Shown in pieces: positions 1,156 through 58,640 of a stretch of 64,000 nucleotides of DNA; positions within the stretch are counted from its first letter, which is position 1; every line of letters begins with the position of its first letter. The notes beneath the pieces are model-generated. The model searched no databases. It was given only the letters and a program-made list of their open reading frames with translations, and had not been told where the DNA came from. The stretch is from a virus, in the IMG/VR virus record IMGVR_UViG_3300010885_043803, positions 1 through 64,000 of that record; one strand, given 5' to 3'. The position numbers were made by a program, and so were the translations under genes.

Positions 1156-1163
1156 TTTAAATA
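1156..1163 (+). promoter_or_regulatory. late promoter motif TTTAAATA
   Basis: T4-late-like TAAATA core just after the gp32 terminator. The motif ends 6 nt before the ATG at 1169, so the expected transcription start coincides with the start codon. Confidence 0.65.
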
Positions 1164-1168
1164 CACAC

Positions 1169-1981
1169 ATGAGAACGATCATCATATCTGGATCAAGTAT
1201 AACCGAGGATAGTCCTTGGCCAACTTGGGCCACCTGGTCTACTAAAATTTTTGATTGGCGCGATGTCGTCAATGTAAGTGTGCGTGGACTAGGAAACGAG
1301 GTAATAATATTGAAAGCATTACAGGCCGCCGAACAATCTCCAGGTAAAAAGTTTATTGTTGTACAACTCACATCGGTGGATAAGTGGGATTGGTATGTAC
1401 AAAATTCTGATCGTGTGGCAGAGTTAGACAAAGAAAAACATCCAATTGTTAGATTGAATTCTGGCGATGCGGCTGGATACTGGTCAACAGGGTCACACTT
1501 TCCAAAGTGGAAAGAGCATTACCGCAGCGAATATTTGAGCATTGACCACCAATGTTTCCATACCCTACAGTTGATTAGTTGGTTCCAGTTAGTGTGTAAA
1601 CAACGTGGATGGGATTACCATATTTTGTTTGACAGCCCAATATTTGCAGTCACTGAATCACAGTTAAACACTGGCATGCTTGATAAAAGCCAATGCGAGA
1701 GCTTGGCCTTGCTTGATAGTTCATTGAGTAAGCTTGCTCAAAGCACTGTTGATACTACAGATATGTACTTGCCCGGGCTTATTGGCTACTGCTGTTTGAA
1801 TAACTTGCCTTGGTTCCACACCAAATACAAAGGACATCCGGGTAGTCTAGCACATTTAGAATTTACAATTAATCAAGTAGTACCAGTGATAGAAAAATAC
1901 TTCAAAGTAATAGTGCCACCGGAACAGTTACGTACCGAAGCTGTCAAAATGCAATTGTTAGTCAATGAGCTACCTTACTAA
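1169..1981 (+). CDS. SGNH/GDSL-like hydrolase
   Basis: 270 residues. Probable SGNH-fold esterase/deacylase: block I GSSIT near the N-terminus (residues 8-12), a glycine/asparagine block II at GLGNE (about 40-44), and a C-terminal GHPGSLAH that fits the His of block V. Substrate unknown; such enzymes often add or remove acyl groups on glycans. It is the first of four SGNH-like genes in the window and opens an overlapping four-gene block reaching 4769. A late promoter motif sits immediately upstream and no ribosome site is evident. Activity not proven. Confidence 0.7.
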   Translation: MRTIIISGSSITEDSPWPTWATWSTKIFDWRDVVNVSVRGLGNEVIILKALQAAEQSPGKKFIVVQLTSVDKWDWYVQNSDRVAELDKEKHPIVRLNSGDAAGYWSTGSHFPKWKEHYRSEYLSIDHQCFHTLQLISWFQLVCKQRGWDYHILFDSPIFAVTESQLNTGMLDKSQCESLALLDSSLSKLAQSTVDTTDMYLPGLIGYCCLNNLPWFHTKYKGHPGSLAHLEFTINQVVPVIEKYFKVIVPPEQLRTEAVKMQLLVNELPY

Positions 1982-8133: not shown

Positions 8134-8141
8134 TTTAAATA
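8134..8141 (+). promoter_or_regulatory. late promoter motif TTTAAATA
   Basis: TAAATA-core motif in the divergent gap. It ends 5 nt before the ATG at 8146, supporting 8146 rather than 8131 as the start of the next gene. Confidence 0.55.
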
Positions 8142-8145
8142 TGTG

Positions 8146-8952
8146 ATGAGCAGAAAATTTTCAGTAGTTACCACTTTCAATCAAGATGGGTATTTAAAGT
8201 ACGGTAGTCGAATGATTGACACATTTTTAACAAATTGGCCATCAGATGTCGTACTGTATGTATACGCAGAGGATTGCGTAATAACACAAACAGCCCCAAA
8301 TCTAATTGTCATGGCAATGCCACAAGAGTTAGTGCAATTTAAACAACAATGGGCCGGTGTTCCAAAAGCCAATGGGGATGTTTCATTGGATCCTATTAGG
8401 TCAACACGCCGAGACGCTGGCAAGGGATTTAAATGGGATGCTGTTCGTTTTGCTCACAAAGTCTACGTTATTTTTGATTGTGCTCGCAACTGTGATGCAG
8501 ATGTATTGCTTTGGATGGATGGTGACATGGTGTGTCACAGCCCTATCTCTATTGCGGAAATATCAATACTGTGCCCAGAAACAAAAGATCTTTGCTTTCT
8601 CGGACGAAAAAACAAATATACTGAGTGCGGACTGTATGCAATGAATCTACACAGTGAATCTCTTAAACAGTTTTTGCAAGAGTTTCAACGCTGTTATGAC
8701 CAAGCAGAGCAAGGCATCTTTCAACTTGACGAGTGGCATGACAGTTATGTATTTGATGCTGTGCGAAAACGTTTTCGACTTGTTGAATTAGATTGGTCCA
8801 GTCATTTGATTACCGGGGAAGGGCATCCTCTAATCAATAGCACTTGGGGTAGATATCTTGATCATCTTAAAGGTGACCGAAAATCTCTAGGACGTAGCAA
8901 ACAGAAAGATTTAAAGACGCCTAGGATTGAGGAGTATTGGCAGACTTTTTAG
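8146..8952 (+). CDS. glycosyltransferase, GT-A fold with DxD
   Basis: 268 residues from ATG 8146; an in-frame ATG at 8131 lies on the promoter motif and is rejected. The N-terminus (VVTTFNQDGYLKYG) and DADVLLWMDGDMVCH, with a DxD-type metal/nucleotide-sugar site, indicate a GT-A glycosyltransferase like GT8. C-terminal W/D/H-rich acceptor region. Its 3' end overlaps the convergent GT25-like gene by 32 nt. Confidence 0.7.
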   Translation: MSRKFSVVTTFNQDGYLKYGSRMIDTFLTNWPSDVVLYVYAEDCVITQTAPNLIVMAMPQELVQFKQQWAGVPKANGDVSLDPIRSTRRDAGKGFKWDAVRFAHKVYVIFDCARNCDADVLLWMDGDMVCHSPISIAEISILCPETKDLCFLGRKNKYTECGLYAMNLHSESLKQFLQEFQRCYDQAEQGIFQLDEWHDSYVFDAVRKRFRLVELDWSSHLITGEGHPLINSTWGRYLDHLKGDRKSLGRSKQKDLKTPRIEEYWQTF

Positions 8953-9619
8953 GCATCTTGGCCCACATGCCAGTTTTTGTTAAGCTCTTTTTACCATCAG
9001 TATCTACAGCGGCCCTCCCCATCAAGTGTGAATGACATTGTAAGTTTACCACACTCATGTTAAGTGCATTGTCGGCTGGCAAGTAATAGTGCTGGTAATG
9101 TTTGCACAGTTTAGATGCTGCCTTGGGAGTAATTGCGTATCCCACTGCTCCGGGCATTACTTTCCCTTTGAATTTACAAGCCATGGGCTCGCCTTGGGGA
9201 GAGTAAAGTTTCTCTTTATAAAAATCGTTTTCGTACGCTGCTTTTCCAGTAGCAAGCAATAGGATATCATCCCACTCAATGGGCACAAACCCCCGCTCAA
9301 AGATTACGTCATCTTCAAAAATCATAATTGATTCATTGAGTTCAGCGCACAGTTGCCACAGTCGGTAGTGGCTGTGAAAACATCCCATTACTCCCGGTCT
9401 CTCACACGAACGCCTATAATTGTCGTCGATAGCATTGCCCTTGAAGCTGATTGGTTGTAGTTCTCGACCTTCTTTTTTAAAAATATCCACGGCATCATTG
9501 CCATATGTACCTTCAAATAGACTGGCATTAATCCCAAACTTAATAAGATCATTGACAACTTTTTTCCCGCTGTTTGCGGAACTGTAAATTTTGCTTAGAC
9601 TGATTACAAAGGCTCTCAT
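8921..9619 (-). CDS. glycosyltransferase family 25-like
   Basis: 232 residues. GT25 (LPS/beta-1,4-galactosyltransferase type) features: N-terminal AFVISLSK, GCFHSHYRLWQLC at about 80-92, EDDV about 101-104, and GAVGYAITPKAASKL about 156-170. Probably transfers a hexose to a surface glycan. Late promoter motif directly upstream. Lies convergent with the GT-A gene and divergent from the GT2 gene. Confidence 0.8.
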   Translation of the reverse strand: MRAFVISLSKIYSSANSGKKVVNDLIKFGINASLFEGTYGNDAVDIFKKEGRELQPISFKGNAIDDNYRRSCERPGVMGCFHSHYRLWQLCAELNESIMIFEDDVIFERGFVPIEWDDILLLATGKAAYENDFYKEKLYSPQGEPMACKFKGKVMPGAVGYAITPKAASKLCKHYQHYYLPADNALNMSVVNLQCHSHLMGRAAVDTDGKKSLTKTGMWAKMPKKSANTPQS

Positions 9620-9624
9620 GTTAA

Positions 9625-9632
9625 TATTTACT
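9625..9632 (-). promoter_or_regulatory. late promoter motif AGTAAATA
   Basis: On the minus strand the motif ends exactly 6 nt before the ATG at 9619, the same spacing as at 1156, 13506, 36671 and 54854. Confidence 0.6.
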
Positions 9633-12742: not shown

Positions 12743-13500
12743 TTTCTTTCAATATCTTCTTCAACACAGTTCTCGCCATATTGTATTTCAATTAGTCGAA
12801 GTGGCTGATCAGTTTCATTGCACAACATATGCCATTGGCCTTGCTTGATCCAAATATATTCATGCACTTTAAAATGTCCAATTAAGTCATGATCACTGGA
12901 ATTGTTTAGAGTGTAAACGGCAGCTTCGCCTTCGGCAACAAACCAAAACTCAGCACGTTGTTCATGACGTTGCATACTTAAACACGTCTTTGGCGCCACA
13001 GTTAGTTCTTTGAGCTTGGTGTTGGCCCCCACTTCATGTAACACACGATAGTATCCCCAGGCACGAGTTGTACGGGGCTTCTTCCAATCTTCTAGTATCC
13101 AGCTGGAACTGTTCTTTTTGTCTTCACCACCAACACCAAACACAAACTCAATGTTAGAATCCTCTACGTCCATTTCTGGAATATTTTTTGCAGTGCGATC
13201 GCCACCGTTGGCAAACACCAGTTCAGCATCGGGATAGTGTGCGCGAACTTGATGTATAAAGGCCTTGGCTGAACCGTCACTGTCATCAAAAGTATAGACT
13301 TCGTCTACCATGGAAAGATTGTTTATCACACACAAACGCTCATTCCATGGCATGAATGGCCGACCTTTTTTACGAGTCAGCCACTCATCGCTGTTGAGCC
13401 CTACAATTAACATGTCACCCAGAGTACGGGCAGTTTTGAAGTAGGCAATATGCCCAGAATGTACGGGATCAAACCCGCCGGTTACAAGTACGATTTTCAT
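12739..13500 (-). CDS. nucleotidyltransferase-cupin fusion (cytidylyltransferase + sugar-isomerase-like cupin)
   Basis: 253 residues with two domains. Residues 1-140: HxGH-type cytidylyltransferase (TagD/HldE type), with GGFDPVHSGH at 8-17, a VGLNSDEWL strand-loop, FANGGDR at 97-102 and NSSSWIL at 130-136 in place of the ISSTxIR signature. Residues 145-253: a cupin resembling the C-terminal part of type II mannose-6-phosphate isomerases (KELTVAPKTCLSMQRHEQRAEFWFV, GQWHMLCNETDQPLRLIEIQYG, EEDI). It probably activates a sugar or alditol phosphate with CTP. First gene of a minus-strand run, with an exact TATAAATA motif upstream. Confidence 0.8.
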   Translation of the reverse strand: MKIVLVTGGFDPVHSGHIAYFKTARTLGDMLIVGLNSDEWLTRKKGRPFMPWNERLCVINNLSMVDEVYTFDDSDGSAKAFIHQVRAHYPDAELVFANGGDRTAKNIPEMDVEDSNIEFVFGVGGEDKKNSSSWILEDWKKPRTTRAWGYYRVLHEVGANTKLKELTVAPKTCLSMQRHEQRAEFWFVAEGEAAVYTLNNSSDHDLIGHFKVHEYIWIKQGQWHMLCNETDQPLRLIEIQYGENCVEEDIERK

Positions 13501-13505
13501 AATGA

Positions 13506-13513
13506 TATTTATA
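13506..13513 (-). promoter_or_regulatory. late promoter, exact TATAAATA
   Basis: Matches the T4 late consensus at all eight positions on the minus strand and ends 6 nt before the ATG at 13500. Confidence 0.8.
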
Positions 13514-13525
13514 TGCTAATTTAAC

Positions 13526-13533
13526 GGTAAATA
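13526..13533 (+). promoter_or_regulatory. late promoter motif GGTAAATA
   Basis: Faces away from the exact late promoter at 13506-13513, so the 41-nt gap holds a divergent late promoter pair. It ends 9 nt before the ATG at 13542. Confidence 0.5.
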
Positions 13534-13541
13534 TCAAAGTC

Positions 13542-14267
13542 ATGTCTACTACCCCTATGTCAATTGATTGTGCTTGTCTCATACACGGCGATGTTTATGA
13601 CTGGAGCTATGTTGAAAAGTTGTATTCAATGTTGCAACGAAATTTTTCAGTGCCAGTTAACTTACATGTTTTTACCGAGGAGTCAAGATCAGTTCCGCCT
13701 CACATGATCAAACATGTATTGAAAGAATGGTCAGGCGTGGCTGGACCAAAAAAGGCCTGGTGGTACAAAATGCAGATGTTTGATAGAAACAACTTTGCCG
13801 GGCAATTATTGTATTTTGATCTGGATGTTGTTATAGTCAATAGCCTAGATTGGATACTGCACCTGTCTCGCGATTATTTCTGGACCATACGCGATTTTCG
13901 ATATTTGTGGAGACCAAATTGGGCTGGTATTAATTCCAGCGCAATGTACTGGGACACCAACAAGTTTCATCACATATGGAGAAGTTTTTGCAAGCAAGAT
14001 CTTGCTGAAATAATGCGCACACATCCGGGAGATCAGGATTTTTTAAGTAATACCATTGGGGGAGATCAGCGTAGATTCTTCAAGGAAAAAACAGTATCTA
14101 GCTGGCGCTGGCAAATATTTGATGGGGGAATGGATATGCAGTCTAGATCTTATCGTAAACCTGGAGCAGGAGCTATCGTACCTCCCGAAACAAGTATCAT
14201 AGTATTTCACGGAAGACCCAAACCGCTGGATATTAAAGATCAGTACATAATTAACAATTGGGCATAG
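13542..14267 (+). CDS. phage GT-A glycosyltransferase with DLD motif
   Basis: 241 residues. Contains KAWWYKMQMFD and LLYFDLDVVIVNSLDWI (DxD metal site), then HPGDQDFLS and a terminal IIVFHGRPKPLDI in which the His may complete the metal site. This is the pattern of GT8-like transferases in phages and capsule loci. Last gene of the glycosyltransferase island. Confidence 0.7.
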   Translation: MSTTPMSIDCACLIHGDVYDWSYVEKLYSMLQRNFSVPVNLHVFTEESRSVPPHMIKHVLKEWSGVAGPKKAWWYKMQMFDRNNFAGQLLYFDLDVVIVNSLDWILHLSRDYFWTIRDFRYLWRPNWAGINSSAMYWDTNKFHHIWRSFCKQDLAEIMRTHPGDQDFLSNTIGGDQRRFFKEKTVSSWRWQIFDGGMDMQSRSYRKPGAGAIVPPETSIIVFHGRPKPLDIKDQYIINNWA

Positions 14268-14282
14268 ATAATTGTTCTGTTG

Positions 14283-14290
14283 GATAAATA
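14283..14290 (+). promoter_or_regulatory. late promoter motif GATAAATA
   Basis: TAAATA-core motif 22 nt before the ATG at 14313, leaving a short leader with an AAGGACC ribosome site. Confidence 0.6.
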
Positions 14291-14312
14291 ACAATATGAA
14301 AAGGACCCAATC

Positions 14313-14975
14313 ATGGCCACACGTACATATCAATTAAATTGTAAAATTTGGGGAAATTCCAGCAACCCCGCCACCGTCACAGTTAACTACAATGGAAATC
14401 AAGTGTTTTCAAACACAGTTAGTACCATAGATGGCCCGTTGAACCCAGAAACACCCGAGGGTTTAAGTCCGTTGATTTACTGGACCACAGATACTGCAAC
14501 TGACGTCGGCGGAGTGTTCCCAGTCAGCGTTACTATCCAAAACGGCAACATGCTATTGCGTGACATCGTAGTTAATCAAATGTGGGCTGTTGACATATTT
14601 GATTTAGTTGCTGGTACATTGTGGCCAGCGCATGTACCTCAGACAGCAATGGAAGTTATTTCCGATTGGATCCAACTAACAGACGCAGATTTTGAAACCA
14701 AATATGGATTAACTAAAGCTGTGGCATACTCAGTGCAACGTCCGGAAGATCCGCCAGATCCAACCAAGCGTCTGAGATATGTTACAACCCAAAAATCAAT
14801 TGAAGACAACTACCAGGTGCCTATGTTAGGCGATCATCTTGGCCAGGATCCAAGAAGCAACATTGAAATTGACGGAGTTCCGCAAGTTGTTGCCGCGCCG
14901 GGCGGGTATATCGTTTTACAAAACGGCGATACAGTGACCATGACTTACACGGTTGATCTTCCACCTAATAGATAA
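14313..14975 (+). CDS. probable virion protein
   Basis: 220 residues, not recognised by family. Beta-rich composition (Thr/Val/Asn-rich strands, few Lys), a Pro-rich centre (RPEDPPDPTKR) and a late promoter upstream fit a structural or decoration protein. No signal peptide or membrane segment. It is isolated from its neighbours by two terminators downstream, as expected for a strongly expressed single gene. Function inferred from promoter class and composition only. Confidence 0.5.
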   Translation: MATRTYQLNCKIWGNSSNPATVTVNYNGNQVFSNTVSTIDGPLNPETPEGLSPLIYWTTDTATDVGGVFPVSVTIQNGNMLLRDIVVNQMWAVDIFDLVAGTLWPAHVPQTAMEVISDWIQLTDADFETKYGLTKAVAYSVQRPEDPPDPTKRLRYVTTQKSIEDNYQVPMLGDHLGQDPRSNIEIDGVPQVVAAPGGYIVLQNGDTVTMTYTVDLPPNR

Positions 14976-16832: not shown

Positions 16833-16836
16833 CTTG

Positions 16837-16844
16837 ATTAAATA
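16837..16844 (+). promoter_or_regulatory. late promoter motif ATTAAATA
   Basis: Directly after the terminator; ends 8 nt before the ATG at 16852. Confidence 0.55.
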
Positions 16845-16851
16845 CAACATC

Positions 16852-17652
16852 ATGCACATCGTTTTTGCTGACGGCACTGACGTTGAAATTCATTTAACGT
16901 CCTCGCCAATACAGGTACCCATACAACGGATCTACAAGCATCTACAGCACGTATCGTTGCCGTTTAGAGCTTGGGACGACCCTGCGTACCCGCACTCAAT
17001 GCAGTACTCAGAATTAGTTGATTGCCTGTGCATCTATGCCAGCAAGGTTGGAATTCACGTTGACCGCCAACGTTGTTTGAAAAATGAGCAAGCGTATTTT
17101 AACCAACTACACCGGCTATATGAAATTGGTTATAATGGCAACTCGGACTGGCTGGATTTTCATGAACACATACACATGTGTGAGCAGTACACGAAGGACA
17201 AAAAGCCCATGATGAGTTTGGACTACAGAGAAAAGTCTGGACCATTAGAGCAAAAGTTCAAGTCAGACTGGACAGAGTTCATGGTCAATGTACTGCATCC
17301 TGGGGATGTATATGTGCCCTGGGCCGAGCTTGGCAAGAGCCCATATGACTACTGGGCTGATGGTGAACCCAACAACCTGTCTAGACTATGCGAGTTGGCC
17401 AAGCCTTGGCTTAAATTAAAACCCAAAATATGTGTTGCATTTGAACACATAGACAAAATGGAAAACGTTCGTGCAAATGAATTTGATTCATGGTGGAGTC
17501 ATTATGAAAAACTCTGGTGCCAGCACTGGAATATCTCTGCCTGGACGGTGCAAAACATGCATGCATCAACCTTGATTGGGCGTACCGATCATGTAGCAAT
17601 AAAGAACAAACTTTCACAAAAAATCTATCCAGTCAAAGTTGTACTAAAATGA
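16852..17652 (+). CDS. unknown protein
   Basis: 266 residues from ATG 16852; an upstream TTG at 16834 lies in the terminator T-run and is rejected. Not recognised. Trp/Tyr/His-rich with a Asp/Glu-containing middle (FHEHIHMCEQY, GDVYVPWAELGKSPYDYW). Its C-terminal strand pattern ends in VKVVLK. ATGA-like overlap with the next gene; it starts a run of four overlapping genes that ends with a radical SAM enzyme, so a shared biosynthetic task is plausible. Confidence 0.7.
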   Translation: MHIVFADGTDVEIHLTSSPIQVPIQRIYKHLQHVSLPFRAWDDPAYPHSMQYSELVDCLCIYASKVGIHVDRQRCLKNEQAYFNQLHRLYEIGYNGNSDWLDFHEHIHMCEQYTKDKKPMMSLDYREKSGPLEQKFKSDWTEFMVNVLHPGDVYVPWAELGKSPYDYWADGEPNNLSRLCELAKPWLKLKPKICVAFEHIDKMENVRANEFDSWWSHYEKLWCQHWNISAWTVQNMHASTLIGRTDHVAIKNKLSQKIYPVKVVLK

Positions 17653-35654: not shown

Positions 35655-35662
35655 ACTAAATA
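35655..35662 (+). promoter_or_regulatory. late promoter motif ACTAAATA
   Basis: Predicted start of transcription at 35668, one nt before a hairpin (35669-35682). Confidence 0.65.
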
Positions 35663-35668
35663 AAAGCA

Positions 35669-35682
35669 GACCCCAAGTGGTC
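35669..35682 (+). other. 5' leader stem-loop
   Basis: GACC/GGTC stem with a CCAAGT loop at the predicted 5' end of the mRNA for the virion protein; it leaves the AAGGAG ribosome site free downstream. Confidence 0.45.
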
Positions 35683-35703
35683 ATATATTAAGGAGATTTA
35701 AAA

Positions 35704-36174
35704 ATGGCATATTTTCCACCTTTCAATGGTGACGCACAACCAGTATTTGCGTTAGACGTTAACAACGGTCCTCAGACCGGTAACATTGGTTCTACTGATG
35801 CGTTAGTTCAGCCTCAAGGCCCCAAGCTAGACTTCTTCAAAGTTCTAGTTAAAAACGGTTCTGCAACAGCAATTGATCTTCGCGATCAGTTGGGTAACTA
35901 CAGCGGCGGCGGTACAGTGTTTAACCCAGGTGTTGTTGTTCAGATCAACCAACGTGTTCAACAAACTGCTACCATCGCTATCTACCAAGTAGAAGGCGCA
36001 AGCACTGGCCAGATCAGCTACGCTATCTACCCACAAGATGCTTACACTGCTTCCACATTGCAGACAGCTATTCAAGCTCTTGGCAACATTCAGATCACAG
36101 CATCTGATGGTACTGTGACTGGTGTTGACGTTAGCGGCACAATTGTTACTGAGCCTGGCTTCCAACTAGCTTAA
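35704..36174 (+). CDS. virion structural protein
   Basis: 156 residues, low in charge, Gly/Ala/Thr/Gln-rich, beta-forming, no signal peptide. Very strong ribosome site (AAGGAG), a late promoter and a private terminator point to high late expression, as for a capsid decoration or tail protein. No exact family. Confidence 0.65.
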   Translation: MAYFPPFNGDAQPVFALDVNNGPQTGNIGSTDALVQPQGPKLDFFKVLVKNGSATAIDLRDQLGNYSGGGTVFNPGVVVQINQRVQQTATIAIYQVEGASTGQISYAIYPQDAYTASTLQTAIQALGNIQITASDGTVTGVDVSGTIVTEPGFQLA

Positions 36175-36229: not shown

Positions 36230-36237
36230 GTTAAATA
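36230..36237 (+). promoter_or_regulatory. late promoter motif GTTAAATA
   Basis: Right after the terminator; ends 7 nt before the ATG at 36244. Confidence 0.6.
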
Positions 36238-36243
36238 ACAGAC

Positions 36244-36675
36244 ATGACTTATCGTATCTTTTGCAAAACTAAATTTGACATCACAGCCACTGGAGTGCGC
36301 AGTCATTATAGATCTGCACGTATGCCTTTTAAGGACGAACAGGGACGGGATATTATTGACCAATCTACATGGAATCGCTCACGGAACAAACAACGTAATT
36401 GGGAAACTGTTAATCAAGTCATAAGCCTGCGCACATTGCCAGAGAATATCAATGCACCTAAGCAGGTGATTGTGGATGATGTATCGTTTTGGGAGTTTAG
36501 TTTTGATATTGACAATATTGAAACAACCACATTAGATGACAACCCAGTTGGTGCGCTAGTACGAGACTGTCAGGGAGTACCAATGATACTAGGGCTTGAC
36601 GAAACACCTGGACTAGCACCAATGCTTGATGCAAGCATTGATTCTAATATATGGTTCTGGACCAACTTAGAATAA
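36244..36675 (+). CDS. probable virion-associated protein
   Basis: 143 residues. N-terminus FCKTKFDITATGVRSHYR, then a basic mid-part (QSTWNRSRNKQRNWETVNQVISLRT) and an acidic strand-rich end. The first segment looks conserved (short-spaced aromatic/basic residues). Late promoter context suggests structural or packaging role; function unknown. Confidence 0.6.
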   Translation: MTYRIFCKTKFDITATGVRSHYRSARMPFKDEQGRDIIDQSTWNRSRNKQRNWETVNQVISLRTLPENINAPKQVIVDDVSFWEFSFDIDNIETTTLDDNPVGALVRDCQGVPMILGLDETPGLAPMLDASIDSNIWFWTNLE

Positions 36676-36678
36676 ATA
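36671..36678 (+). promoter_or_regulatory. late promoter motif AATAAATA
   Basis: Overlaps the stop of the preceding gene and ends exactly 6 nt before the ATG at 36684. Confidence 0.65.
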
Positions 36679-36683
36679 ATTCT

Positions 36684-36947
36684 ATGTCCGACACCACTGA
36701 AATTGAAAAAAAGAGCCTTGAAGCGCACGTTGAATTGTGTGCTGAAAGATACCGCCAATTAGAATTCACTATTTCTGATATCAAAGCAGATGTGGCCGAA
36801 CTAAAAAACATACTAAATGTGGTGCGTGATAAATTGTCTGAGATGAGTGACAAGAGAAACAATCAACTTATTACCTGGGCCATTAGTATAATGAGTATTA
36901 TGCTTGGTACCATTGGTTACTTGACTGTTAATTACGTTTTAAAATAA
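36684..36947 (+). CDS. XhlA-like membrane-anchored coiled-coil protein
   Basis: 87 residues from ATG 36684. Residues 5-62 are coiled coil (AEERYRQLEFTISDIKADVAELKNIL type heptads); residues 65-85 are one transmembrane helix (ITWAISIMSIMLGTIGYLTVNYV). This matches the XhlA haemolysin/holin-accessory layout. Likely involved in lysis or membrane attachment; no lysozyme is nearby. Confidence 0.6.
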   Translation: MSDTTEIEKKSLEAHVELCAERYRQLEFTISDIKADVAELKNILNVVRDKLSEMSDKRNNQLITWAISIMSIMLGTIGYLTVNYVLK

Positions 36948-39204: not shown

Positions 39205-39597
39205 ATGGCTTACAGCGAAAAAGTTGTTGATCATTACGAAAACCCCCGCAACGTGGGCTCCTTTGAAAAGGGCGACGAAGATGTGGGCACTGGCATGGTG
39301 GGTGCACCTGCCTGCGGCGATGTAATGAAACTACAAATAAAGGTGGATCATGATACAGGTATTATTACAGATGCAAAATTTAAAACGTATGGCTGCGGCT
39401 CAGCGATCGCGAGCTCGAGTTTGGTTACTGAATGGGTCAAAGGAAAAACTCTTGACGAAGCCGGGTCAATTAAAAACTCCGAAATCGCTCAAGAGCTAGC
39501 TCTTCCACCGGTCAAAATACATTGCAGTATCCTTGCCGAAGATGCCATCAAGGCCGCAGTAGAGGACTACAGAAAGAAGCATGCTAACAGTCACTGA
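39205..39597 (+). CDS. iscU: IscU-type Fe-S cluster scaffold
   Basis: 130 residues, the usual length. Scaffold on which [2Fe-2S] clusters are built with IscS and handed on by HscA/HscB. All key residues are present: Cys37 and Asp39 (APACGD), Cys64 (YGCGS), LPPVK (100-104, HscA recognition), His106 and Cys107. Overlaps iscA by 17 nt. The phage has no iscS here, so it would rely on host desulfurase. Confidence 0.95.
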   Translation: MAYSEKVVDHYENPRNVGSFEKGDEDVGTGMVGAPACGDVMKLQIKVDHDTGIITDAKFKTYGCGSAIASSSLVTEWVKGKTLDEAGSIKNSEIAQELALPPVKIHCSILAEDAIKAAVEDYRKKHANSH

Positions 39598-39901
39598 CAG
39601 TGCGGCAAAGAAGATTCAGCAAGTAATTGCCAAACGTGGCCGGGGTCTGGGCATTCGGCTAGGTGTTAGAACCACAGGTTGCTCGGGGCTAGCTTATGTG
39701 TTAGAATATGTAGATAGTCCACAAGAAACTGATCAAACTGTCGAATGCAATGGATGCAAGATATTCATTGATCCGAAAAGCTGTCCATATTTGCAAGGTG
39801 TAACTGTTGATTATGTACGCCAAGGTCTCAATGAAGGCTTTGAATTTAAAAATCCCAATGAACGTGACCGTTGCGGTTGCGGAGAAAGCTTTAGAATTTA
39901 A
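39581..39901 (+). CDS. iscA: IscA-type Fe-S carrier protein
   Basis: 106 residues. A-type carrier with the three conserved Cys: Cys34 (TTGCSG), Cys98 and Cys100 (CGCGESF). Delivers clusters to client enzymes. Extra Cys at 56, 59 and 68. Overlaps iscU by 17 nt, and its stop adjoins the exonuclease start. Confidence 0.93.
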   Translation: MLTVTDSAAKKIQQVIAKRGRGLGIRLGVRTTGCSGLAYVLEYVDSPQETDQTVECNGCKIFIDPKSCPYLQGVTVDYVRQGLNEGFEFKNPNERDRCGCGESFRI

Positions 39902-46672: not shown

Positions 46673-46942
46673 ATGCCAGCAGTGTGCAGACTTGGCGATC
46701 CAGACAACGGCAAGGGTCGAATTCTTGAGGGTGTAAATTCCGTGTATGTCAATGGCAAACCCATTGCCGTCGTTGGAGCCAAGGTAAGTCCTCATGGTAA
46801 AGGTAAGCATCGATCTGCTAAAGTACAACAGGGAAGTGGCACGGTATTTGCCGGTGGCAAAGCAGTAACTTTTGTTGGCGCCATGGACAATTGCGGACAT
46901 ACTAGAAGCTCTGGCAGTGGCGATGTATTTGTGGGCGGTTGA
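46673..46942 (+). CDS. PAAR-domain tail spike tip
   Basis: 89 residues. PAAR repeats: CRLGDPDNGKG, VNGKPIAVVGAKVSPHG and VFAGGKAVTFVGAMDNCGH, with Cys/His that bind the tip metal ion. Forms the sharp cap of the baseplate spike that pierces the outer membrane. Overlaps the large protease gene that starts at 46945 within a few nt, so the two are probably assembled together. Confidence 0.88.
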   Translation: MPAVCRLGDPDNGKGRILEGVNSVYVNGKPIAVVGAKVSPHGKGKHRSAKVQQGSGTVFAGGKAVTFVGAMDNCGHTRSSGSGDVFVGG

Positions 46943-46944
46943 CC

Positions 46945-49900
46945 ATGGGTGCATTGTCATCAGTGATGGCCACTGCTGGTGCAGGTTTATTACCTAATCC
47001 CCCTCAGGATGTTGGCACCACAATAATCGCACCAAACAACATTGCAAATGCTGTGGCAACATATGGCAATGTTTCAATTATATCAACATTTCAAAGTATT
47101 TGCTCTACTGCACTAGGTGCAGTAAGTGGCGGAAATCTATCTCAAACAAACTTATTAGGCTTGTTGGCCCTGGGCTCCAACACATTCCCTGCACTAACCA
47201 GTGTGTTACCGGAAAATACCGCACCCACTAGTGTACTGGTTTCTGGTTTAGCTAGCCCCTGGGACAGTTCTATTTCTTACATAGCCGGCGACGTAGTTTC
47301 CTATAATGGCAATGTGTTTATTGCCAAGGTTGCAAGCAAAAATCAAACACCCACAACTGGCACATACTGGAATCTTTACATTGTATGTTATAGCTTACCA
47401 ACGGTTGTTGGAATTGATTCAACAACAGTGTCCGGCAACGGGGACCAGTCAAAATTTTGTCAAGCTTTTATGGCTGCTCAGGGATATATTTCCCAGGCCA
47501 ATGCAACTATTAATTCAGTAAAAAACAGTGCGATCTTGGCCGAAACATTTACACCAGCAAATGGTGGCATGGACAATTTGACCACTGGTGGGTTGAATCA
47601 AGTAACCAGCGACATTGCCGGGCTTGGTGCAGATTTAAAGAAACTGGGAAACTTGATTAATCTAGCACAGTTGGATTATTGGGGACTGCCTGGAGAGTTG
47701 TTGGCACAACTTGGGCGTGTGGGCAATGGTATATTACCAGGGCTGGCCACTCCATTAACCACTGCCGGTATAACAACACAACAAATTTCCAGTTTGTCCA
47801 AAGGGTCAAACACACTAGATGCGCAAGCAGAAAAAACTGCATATACAGTAATGACAAAAATCACTGGGTCGGTTCTTTCCCAGGTACTAGCTGTGTTTGG
47901 GGTTACAACTAGTAACATAGCCAACATGGCACAGTTGTTGAATCCAAAAGTTATAATGCCAACTGCTTACAGCAAATTGTTGTGTCCAACAAAAGATGGA
48001 CTTGTGCCAATCTATGTCAACGGCGCCACAAATCAAAATCTAATTACCACAGTAGACGATGCCAACATCGTTGCTTACTCGGGACAAACTGGTACCAATG
48101 GTTACAACACACTTAAATTAATTACTCCACCAGATCAAGCCCTGGCAAACAAAGCATTTGCCCAAGCAATGCAACAGGTAAAAAATGTTTCAACATCGTT
48201 GTTGCCTGGTATTAGCACAGCAATGTTGGCGGTAGAATCAAACACTGGATTGACTGCGGTTAAGAATTTGACCAAACCAGTTCCGGCCACTGTGATTACT
48301 GCATACCAACAACAATTAGGTCAAGGATCGGGTCCTAACGGCACACTGGTTATTGGTGACATTTTGGGAGTAGCATATAAAGAATCTATTTCCACTAGCC
48401 TTACCACTATTGCCAACGCAGTTTCTTCCATTAGCGCATCTTCTCTCAACAGTGTTTATACCAATATGTCAGATACCTTGGCTGGTACATTTGGGCCATC
48501 AACTGGTCCTGTGATTATCCCCAGTGGTCCCGGAGCTGGTACGTACACTACCTGGAACGAAGCATTTAGTACAGCATTGACACCAGCGGCTGCCTCGGCA
48601 ATTTCTACTATTGCATCCAGTAATGCCAGCAAGGTGACTGCAACCAATACCCAGTATACTTCAATTATAACCGAAATCGTTAAAGAAATAACAAATCAAA
48701 ACCGAGCACAAATTGATTTTACTGCGTTCGAAGCTAATTCAACTTCGAGCACAATGAGTTTTTCAACAAACTTACATGAGTATGGAAACGATCCAGACGC
48801 AAATGATGTTTTGCTCAAGTTTACTAACACCGCTACACTAGGTGGTCAGTCGTTGATTAGTAGTTTGCGCGAAGGCAGAAACATCGAAGCATTGCAAAAT
48901 GCTGGAATCAAGCTTGACACACAACTAGACTCTGCTCCGGGACCGGTGATTAGCAACACAACAACATCTGCAACACCTTGGTCTCGGGCATCACAGTATT
49001 GGAGCAGAAGCTCCACGCTATCAAACACTTTTCGAAACTGGGGCATTTTACGCTCGTGGAAAGGGCAACAGATTCCAAATTGGGGATCAGACGGCACCAC
49101 AGAACAGACTGGCACAGTATCCGTAAAGGCCAGTGGTACCAATGTGGATGTTGTTATTGTTGATGCAGTGCTTGATCCTGCACATCCTGAGTTTGCAGTA
49201 AATGCAGATGGTACAGGTGGATCACGAGTAAAATACTACAACTGGTTTGATGCAAATATACCGGGCGATCCCTCTGCTGGTAGTCGATATAACCCACCCA
49301 TAACAACCAATGCACCGAGTTCTGCTGATGACAGCAGGCATGCTTGCCATGTAGCCGGCATCGCAGTCGGAAACACACAAGGGTGGGCACCAAAGGCAAA
49401 CATTTTTAACATATCACCCCAGTATGTAACTGGTGGTGTTCCTTATTTGTATTTGTATCAGTACATATTGGCCTGGCACAACAAAAAGAAAGCCACTGGC
49501 AACACCAATCCAACTATTCTCAACAACAGTTGGTACAGTCGTTACACAATTCCTTATACCAGCATTACTTCCTTGACATATCGAGGAGTAACTTACGCAG
49601 GGCCGTTTACTCTTGTTCAACTGTTGGGCTATGGCATTACCAATGATGGGGCTGGTAACTGTATTGTTGCCCTGCAAAATTCAACTATGGATGCACAAAT
49701 AAAAGCATGTATCAACGCCGGTATTATTTTTGTAGGATGTGCTGGCAATAACGATACAAGAATTGCAACATCCAGTGATGCAGACTTTAATAACACATTG
49801 ACTGCCACCGGCTTCAATGGCGGCAGTCCAATTTATTATGCTCGTGGTAGTTCGCCAGTTGCCACACAAAATGTTATATGTGTTGGCGCAATTCGCGCAC

Positions 49901-50277
49901 CAAAGAATGATGGCAAGGCTAGTTCAAGTAACTGTGGTCCTCGTGTTGATTTGTTTGCACCTGGTGCATTCATTACCAGCGCCTGGCTGACTGCCAATGG
50001 TGCATCCGGACAACCTACTCCGGTACCAGATCCAAGAAACACAGCTTATTACATTGGCAAGGATACTGGAACCAGCATGGCAGCTCCGCAGGTCACTGGC
50101 ATACTTGCCGCGGCATTGGAGGTCAACCCAACCATGACACAAGCACAAGCATTGGCATACATTCAAAATGCGGCTGCACCAAATCAAATCCCGGATACTG
50201 CAGGCGGATATGCTGATACATTCAGTTTACAAGGAGCACCAAACAAATATCTTGCACTACCATCTGATTTAAAGTAA
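46945..50277 (+). CDS. tail-associated protein with C-terminal subtilisin-like (S8) protease
   Basis: 1,110 residues from ATG 46945 (an in-frame TTG at 46939 rejected). Residues 1-690: low-complexity Ala/Thr/Asn-rich structural region holding a chitin-binding-type module (about 103-145, PWDSSISYIAGDVVSYNG...YWN). Residues 735-1070: S8 protease with catalytic Asp740 (VVIVDAV), His799 (DSRHACHVAGI), Asn in CAGNND and Ser1044 (GTSMAAPQ). The triad is complete. Position next to PAAR suggests a spike- or hub-borne protease acting on host envelope protein, in place of the T4 gp5 lysozyme. Confidence 0.8.
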   Translation: MGALSSVMATAGAGLLPNPPQDVGTTIIAPNNIANAVATYGNVSIISTFQSICSTALGAVSGGNLSQTNLLGLLALGSNTFPALTSVLPENTAPTSVLVSGLASPWDSSISYIAGDVVSYNGNVFIAKVASKNQTPTTGTYWNLYIVCYSLPTVVGIDSTTVSGNGDQSKFCQAFMAAQGYISQANATINSVKNSAILAETFTPANGGMDNLTTGGLNQVTSDIAGLGADLKKLGNLINLAQLDYWGLPGELLAQLGRVGNGILPGLATPLTTAGITTQQISSLSKGSNTLDAQAEKTAYTVMTKITGSVLSQVLAVFGVTTSNIANMAQLLNPKVIMPTAYSKLLCPTKDGLVPIYVNGATNQNLITTVDDANIVAYSGQTGTNGYNTLKLITPPDQALANKAFAQAMQQVKNVSTSLLPGISTAMLAVESNTGLTAVKNLTKPVPATVITAYQQQLGQGSGPNGTLVIGDILGVAYKESISTSLTTIANAVSSISASSLNSVYTNMSDTLAGTFGPSTGPVIIPSGPGAGTYTTWNEAFSTALTPAAASAISTIASSNASKVTATNTQYTSIITEIVKEITNQNRAQIDFTAFEANSTSSTMSFSTNLHEYGNDPDANDVLLKFTNTATLGGQSLISSLREGRNIEALQNAGIKLDTQLDSAPGPVISNTTTSATPWSRASQYWSRSSTLSNTFRNWGILRSWKGQQIPNWGSDGTTEQTGTVSVKASGTNVDVVIVDAVLDPAHPEFAVNADGTGGSRVKYYNWFDANIPGDPSAGSRYNPPITTNAPSSADDSRHACHVAGIAVGNTQGWAPKANIFNISPQYVTGGVPYLYLYQYILAWHNKKKATGNTNPTILNNSWYSRYTIPYTSITSLTYRGVTYAGPFTLVQLLGYGITNDGAGNCIVALQNSTMDAQIKACINAGIIFVGCAGNNDTRIATSSDADFNNTLTATGFNGGSPIYYARGSSPVATQNVICVGAIRAPKNDGKASSSNCGPRVDLFAPGAFITSAWLTANGASGQPTPVPDPRNTAYYIGKDTGTSMAAPQVTGILAAALEVNPTMTQAQALAYIQNAAAPNQIPDTAGGYADTFSLQGAPNKYLALPSDLK

Positions 50278-54570: not shown

Positions 54571-54594
54571 CATAGCAAAATTTCTGTGTATAAT
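54567..54594 (+). promoter_or_regulatory. sigma-70-type early promoter
   Basis: TTGACA, 16-nt spacer, TATAAT. Predicted start at about 54601, on the ATG itself, a second candidate for leaderless early mRNA. Confidence 0.88.
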
Positions 54595-54600
54595 GTTGAC

Positions 54601-54858
54601 ATGGCTACATTGCACAGATTTAGAATTTATGTAAATTCAACCGCACAGTGGTATTCTGTTATGAATGAATGCCGTGATTGGTTTGGAAAAAATTGGAAAA
54701 CCCAGCCAAAAGTTCGCAAAAAATTAGAGACATGGCGCCGCCACAGTGGAGAGCCTATATGTGTGTGGTTTGAGGTTCCCGATGAACGATGGGCCACCTG
54801 GGTGTCGACTAAATTTGCACTAGAAGTTGTATCCGAAACACGCTTCAAGGACCGCTAA
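54601..54858 (+). CDS. unknown small early protein
   Basis: 85 residues from ATG 54601 (a GTG at 54586 lies inside the -10 box). Basic, Trp/Arg-rich (WFGKNWKTQPKVRKKLETWRRHSG), strand-containing. Looks like a small basic nucleic-acid-binding or host-interaction protein. The late promoter of the next gene starts within its end. Confidence 0.65.
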   Translation: MATLHRFRIYVNSTAQWYSVMNECRDWFGKNWKTQPKVRKKLETWRRHSGEPICVWFEVPDERWATWVSTKFALEVVSETRFKDR

Positions 54859-54861
54859 ATA
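54854..54861 (+). promoter_or_regulatory. late promoter motif GCTAAATA
   Basis: Ends exactly 6 nt before the ATG at 54867; overlaps the preceding stop codon. Confidence 0.62.
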
Positions 54862-54866
54862 ATTTA

Positions 54867-56378
54867 ATGATCTTGACTATACTAATGTTTGTGGTGGCAC
54901 TATGTCTAAGCGCAGTGGCCGCTTTTTATTCCATTGTGGGCTTGACCGCAATCTTTGCCGCCGCTGTCATGCCCATTGTTCTCATGGGCAGTATCCTTGA
55001 AGTAGCCAAACTCACAGTCACAGTGTGGTTACACGAGCACTGGGATCGAGCTCGCTGGTTAATGAAGATTTATCTGAGCACAGCAGTGGTAGTGCTGATG
55101 GTAATCACCAGCATGGGCATCTTTGGCTTCTTAAGCAAAGCTCACAGCGATCAAAGCATGGTGTCGGGAGATGTGCAAGCAAAAATTGCAGTTTACGATG
55201 AGAAAATTAAAACATCACGAGAGAACATAGATGCAAACCGCAAAGCACTTAAACAAATGGATGAGGCAGTGGACCAAGTCATGGCAAGAAGCACTTCAGA
55301 AACGGGTGCAGATAAAGCCGTGGCTCTCCGTAGGACGCAACAAAAGGAACGTCAGCGTCTCCTTGCTGAAATTGAAGCCGAACAGAAAAGAGTTAGCGTA
55401 CTTGCTGAAGAGCGAGCGCCGATTGCCGCCGAGGTTAGAAAAGTAGAAGCCGAAGTAGGACCAATAAAATATATCGCCGCATTAATTTACGGTGATAACA
55501 CTGATACTAACATGCTTGAAGCCGCGGTTCGTTGGGTCATTATATTATTGGTCATTGTGTTTGACCCTTTGGCTGTGATGATGTTGTTGGCCGCAACTGA
55601 AAGTCGTAAATGGTTGCGTCAAGATCAAACAAAACCTAAATATGAACAAGATGATGGCCCGTTGACTCAAGAGCAAGTTGAACAAATAAAAGAATCCACT
55701 AAAGAAGATTTGCCCATTGGTGAACTAGTAATCAAGGATGAACTATTTCCATCAGACCCATCACCCCCGGGATGGATGTACAACACTACCACAACAACAT
55801 ACCCATCCACTGAAGAAGAAGTTGAAGAATTAAAAACCGAATTTGATCGTAGCAAACATGCATACCTTGATCAACAATTTCAACCCTTTGAAAACTTACA
55901 GCCAATGGCACATCGTCCTGAATCAGAAAATGAATCAGATACTGTAACAGACGATGAACATGATTTAGAAGATAATGACGCAGTCAAGCAAGCCAAGTCA
56001 CAGTGGAAGATAGATAATCCGGGTGAAACTTTAAAAGAACAGCGTCGATTATTTGAGCGTGGAATCATTGATCGACTGCCTTGGGAAGACTACTTGCCAA
56101 ACCCAGCAGTTGGTAATGTGCCGTTTGGTGAGAAATTCCCAACTGCGCCTGCACGTGGAGATATGTTTACACACGTTGGTTATGTACCTTCTAAGTTGTA
56201 CAAATTCAATGGTGAAAAGTGGATTGAAATTATCAAAGACACTACAGATCAATATACATACAATCAGTCTTATATTGATTATTTGATCAATGCTGTTAGC
56301 AGTGGCCATTATGATGCAGACCTTTTAACCGAGGGCGAACAAGCCCAAATTGAATCTCGTTTACAACAGGACAATTAA
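54867..56378 (+). CDS. large membrane protein with coiled coil
   Basis: 503 residues. Three N-terminal membrane helices (about 1-22, 24-46, 68-90), a coiled coil (about 100-205), a fourth helix (about 222-243), and a long acidic cytoplasmic tail. The tail ends with a small beta motif (FTHVGYVPSKLYKFNGEKWIEI). No family recognised, but this type occurs in T4-like phages. Located in front of clpX with 1-nt overlap; may be a membrane anchor or sensor of the takeover module (inference). Confidence 0.7.
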   Translation: MILTILMFVVALCLSAVAAFYSIVGLTAIFAAAVMPIVLMGSILEVAKLTVTVWLHEHWDRARWLMKIYLSTAVVVLMVITSMGIFGFLSKAHSDQSMVSGDVQAKIAVYDEKIKTSRENIDANRKALKQMDEAVDQVMARSTSETGADKAVALRRTQQKERQRLLAEIEAEQKRVSVLAEERAPIAAEVRKVEAEVGPIKYIAALIYGDNTDTNMLEAAVRWVIILLVIVFDPLAVMMLLAATESRKWLRQDQTKPKYEQDDGPLTQEQVEQIKESTKEDLPIGELVIKDELFPSDPSPPGWMYNTTTTTYPSTEEEVEELKTEFDRSKHAYLDQQFQPFENLQPMAHRPESENESDTVTDDEHDLEDNDAVKQAKSQWKIDNPGETLKEQRRLFERGIIDRLPWEDYLPNPAVGNVPFGEKFPTAPARGDMFTHVGYVPSKLYKFNGEKWIEIIKDTTDQYTYNQSYIDYLINAVSSGHYDADLLTEGEQAQIESRLQQDN

Positions 56379-57565
56379 TGATATCTCCCATTGATATTTG
56401 CAGTTTTTGCGGCAAACACAAGGACAGTGTACAAAAATTAATAGTCAGTGACACCGTGGCCATTTGCAATGAATGTGTTGACTTGTGCCGGGACCTTCTC
56501 AAAGATATTGTACCCACAGAAGAAGTTGAATCTGCCATTGATCGTTCAGATCCCAGGATACTAAAAAAATATCTAGATGAATATGTTATTGGGCAAGACT
56601 CGGCCAAGGTTGTTCTTGCAGTAGCAGTCATTAATCATTACAAGCGACTACAACGCAAAGAAACAGATCCCGAAGTTACAAAAGCCAATATTCTCATGCT
56701 TGGCCCCACTGGTTCGGGCAAAACATTGTTGGCACGTACAGTGGCCAAATATCTTGATGTACCTTTTGTTATTGCCGACGCCACAAGTATTACTGAAGCA
56801 GGCTACGTGGGCGATGACGTTGAAATGCTTATTGCTCGTTTGTATGCGGCATCGGGTAACAGTGTAGAAAAAACACAACGTGGAATTGTGTTTGTTGATG
56901 AAATTGATAAAATTGCTCGCAAAGGCGAAAGCGCAAGTATTACCCGTGATGTGTCGGGTGAAGGCGTGCAACAAGCATTGCTCAAGCTAGTTGAAGGTAC
57001 TGTTTGCCGTATTCCGGCAACAGGCAACCGTAAGCATCCCAATAGTGACATGATTGAAATTGACACAGCTAATATTTTGTTCATTGCCGGCGGTGCATTT
57101 GTTGGGCTAGATTCAGTGATTCGCAGTCGAGTACATGGATCATCTATTGGGTTTAGTAGTCTGGTAACTAAAAATATCGAAGTTAACCTTGCCGACGTTA
57201 GCCCCGACGACTTGGTTAAATTTGGCATGATCCCTGAGTTTGTAGGACGTTTTCCGGTTGTGGTAAGTCTCAATGAGCTTGATCGTGCTGACTTGAATCG
57301 AATACTAGTAGAGGTAAAGAACAATTATATTGAGCAATATCGATGGTTATTTCAGCAAGACAACGTGGACTTTGAAATTACAGAAGATGCACGTTTTGCC
57401 TTGGTTGATCGAGCTATGACCACTGGCACTGGAGCTCGAGCATTGCATAGTGAATTGGAGAGAGTTCTATTACCGCACATGTTTGATCTAGCACGTTATC
57501 GCAATGATGGTATCAAGACCCTGGTCATTGATCAGCAGTTGGTAAATAATCCTAAAGCACTTTAA
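56378..57565 (+). CDS. clpX: ClpX-type AAA+ unfoldase
   Basis: 395 residues. Unfolds tagged proteins for ClpP or remodels complexes. Zinc-binding domain Cys8, Cys11, Cys30, Cys33; Walker A GPTGSGKT (109-116); pore loop GYVG (142-145); Walker B FVDEID (172-177); RKH loop R218-K219-H220; ClpP-docking IGF at 257-259; C-terminal GARALHSELE. All functional parts look intact. No clpP is seen in the window, so it could use host ClpP. Confidence 0.96.
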   Translation: MISPIDICSFCGKHKDSVQKLIVSDTVAICNECVDLCRDLLKDIVPTEEVESAIDRSDPRILKKYLDEYVIGQDSAKVVLAVAVINHYKRLQRKETDPEVTKANILMLGPTGSGKTLLARTVAKYLDVPFVIADATSITEAGYVGDDVEMLIARLYAASGNSVEKTQRGIVFVDEIDKIARKGESASITRDVSGEGVQQALLKLVEGTVCRIPATGNRKHPNSDMIEIDTANILFIAGGAFVGLDSVIRSRVHGSSIGFSSLVTKNIEVNLADVSPDDLVKFGMIPEFVGRFPVVVSLNELDRADLNRILVEVKNNYIEQYRWLFQQDNVDFEITEDARFALVDRAMTTGTGARALHSELERVLLPHMFDLARYRNDGIKTLVIDQQLVNNPKAL

Positions 57566-58142: not shown

Positions 58143-58589
58143 ATGACTAAAATCACATCTTTTGATCTAACCCCCTTCTACCGTACATCAATTGGCGTAG
58201 ACCGCTTGTTTGATCGTATTATCAACCAAATTGATAATACGGCTACAGCAGGCACTAACTATCCCCCATACAATATTGTAAAAACTGGTGAGCATACCTT
58301 TGAACTACAATTAGCATTGGCTGGGTTTACACAAGGCGAAGTTGAAATCACTGTCAAAGATGGTGTAATTTCAATCACGGGCGAGAAGAAAACTTCAAGT
58401 CTGCCCGAAGGACATGAGTACTACTACCAGGGTATCAGTGCTCGTAAGTTCTTCCGTAGTTGGCCTTTGGGTGATTACGTGGAAGTTGTTGACGCTTTGA
58501 TGCGTGATGGTATTTTAACTGTTCGTCTTGAACAACGAGTACCCGATGCCATGAAACCGAAAACAATTGAGATCGCATATCAAAACTAA
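58143..58589 (+). CDS. Hsp20/alpha-crystallin small heat-shock protein
   Basis: 148 residues, IbpA-like. ATP-independent holdase. N-terminal FDRIINQI region, alpha-crystallin domain (about 42-135: LALAGFTQGEVEITVKDGVISITG, ISARKFFRSWPLGDYVEV) and a C-terminal I-x-I motif (I142-E-I144). Strong AAAGGAG site and structured leader; likely abundant late in infection. Confidence 0.93.
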   Translation: MTKITSFDLTPFYRTSIGVDRLFDRIINQIDNTATAGTNYPPYNIVKTGEHTFELQLALAGFTQGEVEITVKDGVISITGEKKTSSLPEGHEYYYQGISARKFFRSWPLGDYVEVVDALMRDGILTVRLEQRVPDAMKPKTIEIAYQN

Positions 58590-58596
58590 ACTTTAA

Positions 58597-58604
58597 CGTA
58601 AATA
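58597..58604 (+). promoter_or_regulatory. late promoter motif CGTAAATA
   Basis: Predicted start 58610 falls in the GC-rich stem-loop 58608-58623. Confidence 0.55.
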
Positions 58605-58607
58605 CAC

Positions 58608-58623
58608 GGGGGCTTCGGCCCCC
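58608..58623 (+). other. GGGGGC-TTCG-GCCCCC hairpin
   Basis: Six GC pairs closed by a UUCG tetraloop, an exceptionally stable RNA hairpin. No T-run follows, so it is better read as the 5' cap-like structure of the clpS transcript, or as a 3' end for hsp20, than as a classical terminator. Confidence 0.7.
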
Positions 58624-58640
58624 ATTTAAAAGGATTCGAA

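Follow-up and report, generated by a model that had tools for sequence, protein, structure and literature searches.

In a lineage of lake jumbo phages, the hexamer TAAATA, which is the core of T4-type late promoters, stands only a few bases in front of the start codon of numerous genes. This short-gap arrangement is confirmed as real, genome-wide and common to the lineage. We infer, with a probability of about 0.85, that late promoters of the gp55 type placed this close to the AUG would give leaderless late mRNAs beside others led by Shine-Dalgarno sites. What we observe are the positions of the motif, the bimodality of its distances, its conservation among orthologues, the switching between the two states, the classes of genes involved and the presence of the sigma factor.

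The window, i.e. the whole stretch of 64,000 bases that was analysed, comprises bases 1-64,000 of a 92,746-base contig, virus record IMGVR_UViG_3300010885_043803. The UvsX protein of the contig is at most 93% identical to those of other metagenome contigs, among the matches listed, and at most 67% identical to those of isolates, of which Sinorhizobium phage Phosso, Vibrio phage 2.275, Atu_ph07, CBB and GAP32 are the nearest; these identities mark the contig as a fragment of a T4-superfamily jumbo phage. The same genes are carried by contigs of 320-353 kb. Six long relatives (G001-G006) were considered, and two of them from lakes, G001 and G003, entered the gap counts. At least 599-600 relatives were found, and the lineage of the virus appears to be common in lake metagenomes. 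A megablast search of window bases 1-25,000 against phage records gave no match, and a tRNA search of the window found none. An AhpC-like peroxiredoxin is encoded at L005:5062-7056 (nearest relatives in Burkholderiales, 64-69%) and is adjoined by what we take, by eye, to be an outer-membrane porin-like gene. Naming the host through the AhpC-like protein was dropped because the similarity is too weak; the pair of genes is a weak hint of a Burkholderiales-type host. Also by eye, we presume IscU-, IscA-, ClpX-, Hsp20-, ClpS- and ClpP-like genes at 39205-39901, 56378-57565, 58143-58955 and L004:18032-18625, a host-like protein-quality and Fe-S set on one phage contig. The 1112-aa protein encoded at 46939-50277 presumably has a subtilisin-like C-terminal part and adjoins a presumed PAAR-like protein at 46673.

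Enrichment and spacing of TAAATA at gene starts

TAAATA is rarer in the window than expected (33 copies vs 51.8 in shuffles), as if it were avoided outside promoters. When any ATG is counted, gene start or otherwise, one follows at exactly 5 nt in 6 of the 33 copies (p = 4e-5) and at 4-8 nt in 13 (p = 5e-6); over the whole contig, 8 of 51 sites have an ATG at exactly 5 nt and 17 of 51 at 4-7 nt. Among contig hexamers with 10 copies or more, TAAATA is at the top for gap 5 and takes second place for gaps 4-7, behind the Shine-Dalgarno hexamer AAGGAG; the hexamer p values are uncorrected for the roughly 4,000 hexamers tested, and the corrected value at gap 5 in the contig is about 0.03. The held-out 28.7 kb of the contig (bases 64,001-92,746), which had not been seen when the preliminary description was made, has an ATG at 4-8 nt in 6 of 18 sites (p = 0.005).

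As a control, 14 other hexamers of the same composition were counted 4-8 nt before gene starts. TAAATA occurs there 15 times in the contig vs a control mean of 2.1, 28 times vs 3.5 in G001, 25 vs 3.8 in G003 and 16 vs 2.8 in the cultured pelagiphage HTVC008M; Atu_ph07 gave 3 vs 2.1, and T4, S-PM2, GAP32 and Vibrio phage 2.275 gave none. Over 1001 candidate ATGs of the contig, G001 and G003, the zone 4-8 nt upstream contains TAAATA 68 times vs 1.3 expected. It is the sole non-Shine-Dalgarno hexamer among the 14 best listed for that zone, its single-base variants being little enriched; in T4 and GAP32 it falls outside the 14 best. A second enrichment lies 15-45 nt upstream of starts, with 39 copies in G001 and 42 in G003 vs same-composition means of 12.8 and 16.4.

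Gaps were measured from TAAATA to the nearest in-frame ATG of called genes, the gene caller being a simple one and the starts predicted. Pooled over the contig, G001 and G003, their distribution is bimodal: 67 lie at 4-8 nt and a single one at 9-14 nt, while 50 lie at 15-25 nt, 45 at 26-60 nt and 6 at 0-3 nt. At the rate seen for 15-25 nt, the void at 9-14 nt has a probability of 4e-11. A genome-wide peak at 6 nt, the absence of which would by the preliminary description have refuted its reading, is present in the contig, in two long relatives and in a cultured pelagiphage, and it recurs among the orthologues of two genes. The spacing is less rigid than the fixed 6 nt proposed there: a peak exists, but the gaps spread over 4-8 nt, with their centre at 5-7. 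Nor is it a feature of one phage, as had been suggested, since it is common to the lineage; T4 is without it.

The two classes differ in their ribosome sites. A core Shine-Dalgarno 4-mer accompanies 1/14 short-gap starts in the contig, 1/28 in G001 and 0/25 in G003, vs 5/8, 30/41 and 32/46, respectively, in the long-gap class. The shortage in the short class is partly forced because the motif itself occupies that place. Unlike this contrast, the void between the classes is not forced by the position of the motif; a promoter whose start site lies about 6 nt downstream would predict it, since a leader of 4-9 nt would be neither leaderless nor able to hold a ribosome site. Start codons of short-gap genes (68 ATG, 3 GTG, 0 TTG) are not significantly different from those of Shine-Dalgarno genes (202, 6 and 12; p = 0.43), so codon use is neutral on leaderless initiation, and exclusive use of AUG was discarded as an uninformative test of it. 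Overlap with an upstream stop codon was also considered as the cause of the short spacing and rejected, as the TAA of the motif is such a codon in a minority of short-gap sites (2/14 in the contig, 4/28 in G001, 2/25 in G003).

In the window, the five genes on which the original suggestion rested do have a TAAATA that ends exactly 6 positions before the A of the ATG, i.e. with 5 bases between. On the plus strand, TAAATA 1158-1163 precedes ATG 1169 of a 270-aa protein without family match (1158..1171); TAAATA 36673-36678 precedes ATG 36684 (36673..36686), its TAA being the stop of gene 36244; and TAAATA 54856-54861 precedes ATG 54867 (54856..54869), its TAA being the stop of ORF 54586-54858. 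The product of 54867 has 503 aa and a weak match to a virion structural family. On the minus strand, TAAATA 9630-9625 precedes ATG 9619 of a Glyco_transf_25 family gene divergent from 9643+ (9617..9630), and TAAATA 13511-13506, here within TATAAATA, precedes ATG 13500 of a gene for a cytidylyltransferase-like plus cupin protein (13498..13511), divergent from 13542+. That none of the five has a clear ribosome site is correct, but partly by construction, since TAAATA occupies its place. The four near cases, all on the plus strand, were also described rightly: 16852 with 7 bases between (16839..16854; inside ORF 16834-17652 and outside the gene-based short-gap set), 36244 with 6 (36232..36246; 143 aa), 13542 with 8 (13528..13544; glycosyltransferase family, the divergent partner of 13500) and 8146 with 4 (8136..8148; a 268-aa protein without family match). 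A further site, absent from the preliminary description, is TAAATA 59749-59744 on the minus strand (59737..59749), which is followed at 3 nt by ATG 59740 and at 6 nt by ATG 59737, an in-frame pair at the start of a metallo-phosphoesterase gene; the counterpart in G003 has a single ATG 6 nt after the motif.

Sites with long gaps stand in contrast to these: the gap from TAAATA is 41 nt for ATG 35704, whose leader contains an AAGGAG site (35657..35706, plus strand), and 36 nt for ATG 58641, whose leader contains AAAGGA (58599..58643, plus strand). Between TAAATA 58599 and gene 58641 there is also a GC-rich hairpin-like element, GGGGGC TTCG GCCCCC, at 58605-58623. In a mixed case on the plus strand (14285..14315), 22 nt that include AAAAGGA separate TAAATA from the likely start 14313, and an out-of-frame ATG lies exactly 5 nt after TAAATA, its short frame overlapping the likely start. 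Two portal relatives (L370 and L347) have comparable ATGs 4 and 7 nt downstream of the motif; these ATGs and that at 14285-14315 could be leaderless mini-ORFs in leaders, or chance.

Probable promoter character, gene classes and orthologues

In the available text of PMC2988020, the T4 late promoter 8-mer TATAAATA spans positions -13 to -6, about one helical turn before the start, which places the T4 transcription start 6 positions after the last A; that T4 late promoters work without a -35 partner is stated there and in the available part of PMC7892883. What is conserved here is TAAATA, exact over its 6 bp; the TA that opens TATAAATA is not kept in the clade. No -35 consensus was detected in the profiles of G001 and G003, in which the values over the 30 bases before the motif stay at or below about 0.5; the profile of the contig (14 sites) has no conspicuous positions other than T-rich ones close to the motif. 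A gp55-family sigma factor (phrog_12791) was found in all six long relatives searched, G001-G006, with E values of 1.6e-62 or better. A gp55 search of the 92.7-kb contig gave 0 matches, as expected because the contig is about a quarter of a genome.

The distribution of the sites over the gene map points the same way. Divergent gene starts need a promoter of their own, and the short motif is concentrated there: it is found at 7/18 of them in the contig, 5/32 in G001 and 9/34 in G003, vs 2/61, 8/183 and 4/204, respectively, of the genes lying at most 15 nt behind a same-strand neighbour. In the window, two of the divergent intergenic regions with short motifs measure 41 nt (13500/13542) and 23 nt (9619/9643) and leave little room for a leader. 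Two divergent TAAATA pairs are nearly back to back, at L004:10737-10749 (contig 70737-70749) and at contig 76048-76065; the hexamers are one and six bases apart, each motif lies 4-9 nt before an ATG, and the intergenic regions are 24 and 31 nt long. Bacterial RNA polymerase favours a pyrimidine at -1 and a purine at +1. The base before the AUG is a pyrimidine in 49/67 short-gap genes vs 372/763 others (p = 1e-4), as would be expected if that base were position -1 of a start site.

In the proposed explanation, TAAATA would be the core of a T4-type late promoter, a -10-like element for a gp55-family sigma factor without a -35 element. In the window phage and its lake relatives, between about a third and more than half of the TAAATA copies near gene starts are followed by an AUG 4-8 nt downstream. 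RNA polymerase is predicted to start on the A of that AUG or no more than about 3 nt upstream, and a few bases of leader are tolerated in leaderless initiation. Having neither a leader nor a Shine-Dalgarno site, the predicted mRNAs would rely on leaderless initiation for their translation, with the host 70S ribosome or its equivalent acting at the 5'-terminal AUG; resistance to kasugamycin is a property of leaderless mRNAs. The remaining late promoters, 15 nt or more upstream, would give mRNAs with ordinary Shine-Dalgarno leaders, and distances of 9-14 nt would be avoided because they would yield leaders that are neither absent nor long enough for such a site. The start sites, the late timing in the window phage and the mode of translation are here inferred from the DNA.

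The genes involved are consistent with late expression in the relatives. The short class of G001 and G003 includes the portal protein in both, the terminase large subunit in G003 (5 nt) and several virion structural families, according to a family scan of 9 (G001) and 10 (G003) short-gap proteins out of 31 and 27 at 0-9 nt. Those contig short-gap genes that have family matches are mostly auxiliary (glycosyltransferases, cytidylyltransferase-cupin, phosphoesterase, fatty-acid desaturase), several others are of no known family, and 54867 alone has a virion match, a weak one. The reading as leaderless late mRNAs, put forward from the window alone, thus gains support from the genome-wide peak, from gp55 in the long relatives and from the predicted use by portal and terminase genes.

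Orthologues of 54867 were collected from 80 loci with 57 distinct upstreams, and 54 of these have TAAATA at 4-8 nt (7 nt in 23, 5 nt in 14, 6 nt in 10, 4 nt in 4 and 8 nt in 3), although the bases around the motif vary. In two of the remainder, L139 and L160, the match begins inside the gene and an in-frame ATG lies 4 nt after the motif, which brings the count to 56/57; the last, L148, has no motif within the 40 nt read.

The portal gene is found in both states. From 80 loci, 79 were used (L319 begins inside the gene), and dropping 16 identical upstreams left 63. With TAAGTA accepted too and the start chosen by a conserved N-terminal motif, 44 have a gap of 4-7 nt, 18 one of 17-26 nt and 1 no motif; none of the 63 lies at 9-16 nt. 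A strict version restricted to TAAATA divides 64 rows into 38 short, 11 long and 15 without motif. On the portal tree there are 8 changes of state, 7 of which are forced by well-supported branches, i.e. at least 7 switches. A core Shine-Dalgarno 4-mer, counted without TAAG because that is part of the TAAGTA variant, occurs in 1/44 short and 8/18 long upstreams, the long ones often being of AGGA or AAGGA type. A paired test for gain of a Shine-Dalgarno site on switching was not significant, with about 3 pairs for and 0-1 against among 7, which are few. The p values quoted in this work are within genomes, since the loci share ancestry and values computed over orthologues would be too small.

Known systems and competing explanations

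Both ingredients of the proposed arrangement, the T4-type late promoter and the leaderless mRNA, are known; for their combination we found no report in open-licence PubMed Central. The T4 late promoters, served by gp55, gp33 and gp45, share with those described here the TAAATA core and the lack of -35 conservation, and a gp55-family sigma is present in the long relatives; T4 differs in that its count of sites 4-8 nt in front of gene starts is 0, and its late mRNAs keep leaders. Only the long mode is found in T4, S-PM2, GAP32 and the Vibrio jumbo phage 2.275. For CBB and GAP32, which are related jumbo phages with the same motif and the same sigma family, the available text of PMC5259590 predicts late promoters of the form ATAAATA before structural genes, with 35 sites in CBB, and the word 'leaderless' is absent from that text. 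In GAP32 we counted 56 sites at distances of 15 nt or more and 0 at 4-8 nt. The sigma factor alone is thus no explanation, since GAP32 shares both the sigma family and the motif and yet lacks a short class; what differs between the lake phages and GAP32 is the placement of the start codon and, presumably, the tolerance of the host ribosome.

Bacterial and phage leaderless mRNAs such as that of lambda cI (PMC9031893, in the part available) likewise have the AUG at or near the 5' end and no Shine-Dalgarno site, both of which are predicted here, but in the present case the arrangement is tied to a phage-specific class of promoters and extends over many of them, virion genes included. AR9 is also a jumbo phage with its own class of late promoters; the available portion of PMC5312081, which remarks that phage transcripts are often leaderless, gives leaders of 26-491 nt for its late transcripts and, unlike the phages considered here, AR9 has RNA polymerases of its own.

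A further parallel is HTVC008M, with a sharp peak of 12 genes that have TAAATA exactly 5 nt before the ATG, annotated baseplate and tail-completion genes among them. It is a smaller phage from another T4-superfamily lineage, with an extended ATAAATAGT motif. In one annotated 50-kb stretch, the starts of 5/5 genes at 4-8 nt are the annotated codons, and the products include baseplate wedge, tail completion and head-tail adaptor proteins. Relatives of its tail-completion gene have TAAATA 5 or 6 nt before the ATG in 15/15 loci, HTVC008M itself included. Short-gap sites are few in Mosig (5) and Melnitz (2), which are relatives of HTVC008M, and in PA5oct (2) and Phosso (1); 400 kb each of the Atu_ph07 and Phosso genomes and 200 kb of that of Vibrio phage 2.275 were read. 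A phosphoesterase-like gene with a short-gap motif, so assigned by eye from the N-termini, is presumably shared by the contig (67682, L004:7682) and the pelagiphage Mosig (94129), and it is possible that gene and promoter were exchanged between the lake jumbo clade and Mosig.

The position of TAAATA within the ribosome-binding zone, where it is enriched like the Shine-Dalgarno hexamers, could also mean that it acts in longer mRNAs as a translation signal, for instance an A/U-rich standby or S1 site replacing the Shine-Dalgarno sequence. We consider this very improbable and rejected it: in the T4 group the hexamer is established as the core of late promoters, it is enriched again at 15-45 nt, a distance at which a Shine-Dalgarno core accompanies most genes, and depleted at 9-14 nt, its single-base variants are little enriched, and its concentration at divergent starts leaves no nearby same-strand gene to supply a longer mRNA. 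Real leaderless promoters might instead be read by the host sigma-70 in early or middle genes rather than by the late sigma factor of the phage, and the mostly auxiliary nature of the contig genes with family matches (glycosyltransferases, desaturase) would suit such a reading, as would the distance of about 7 nt that likewise separates the -10 box of sigma-70 from its transcription start. TAAATA differs from TATAAT, however, the profiles of G001 and G003 lack a -35 consensus, and in the relatives, which possess gp55, the class includes portal and terminase genes; recognition by sigma-70 is accordingly an improbable alternative.

The promoters could be late ones, placed as described, and the proteins nevertheless be made from read-through mRNAs by coupling, or from a later AUG, the spacing then reflecting compaction of the genome. 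The sites in which the TAA of the motif is an upstream stop codon fit this idea, but most short-gap sites have no such overlap, divergent genes have no adjacent upstream gene, the start codons of orthologues are kept together with the spacing, and compaction would leave the 9-14 nt range filled; a later AUG also disagrees with the deposited annotation of the five HTVC008M genes at 4-8 nt in the annotated stretch. We regard coupling or a later start as having very little chance of being correct. Chance or an artefact of gene calling deserves a thought because the starts in such contigs are predicted by a simple caller, yet its probability is negligible: annotation-free counts, same-composition controls and other phages passed through the same caller speak against it, and the held-out part of the contig and the control counts already contradict it.

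Possible implications for late gene expression

Late transcription of the T4 type is a textbook system, in which the late promoters of T4 leave room for leaders. In the lake lineage, at least a third of the late promoters seem to have been shifted onto the start codon, those of virion genes included. Under leaderless late initiation as proposed here, the same promoter and sigma factor would make both leaderless and leadered mRNAs, and, with orthologous genes found in both states, the cost or benefit of leaderless translation is directly testable; HTVC008M, being in culture, offers an accessible system. Annotation may be affected as well, in that programs which locate start codons by Shine-Dalgarno sites could misplace short-gap starts. 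A more far-reaching proposal, which we put forward as doubtful, is that at least two T4-superfamily lineages, the lake jumbo phages and that of HTVC008M, split their late genes into leaderless and Shine-Dalgarno classes under one promoter and so set virion output through the translation state of the host late in infection, genes hopping between the classes by a move of the promoter. If this were true, the leaderless mRNAs would be favoured when initiation factors or 30S subunits are limiting.
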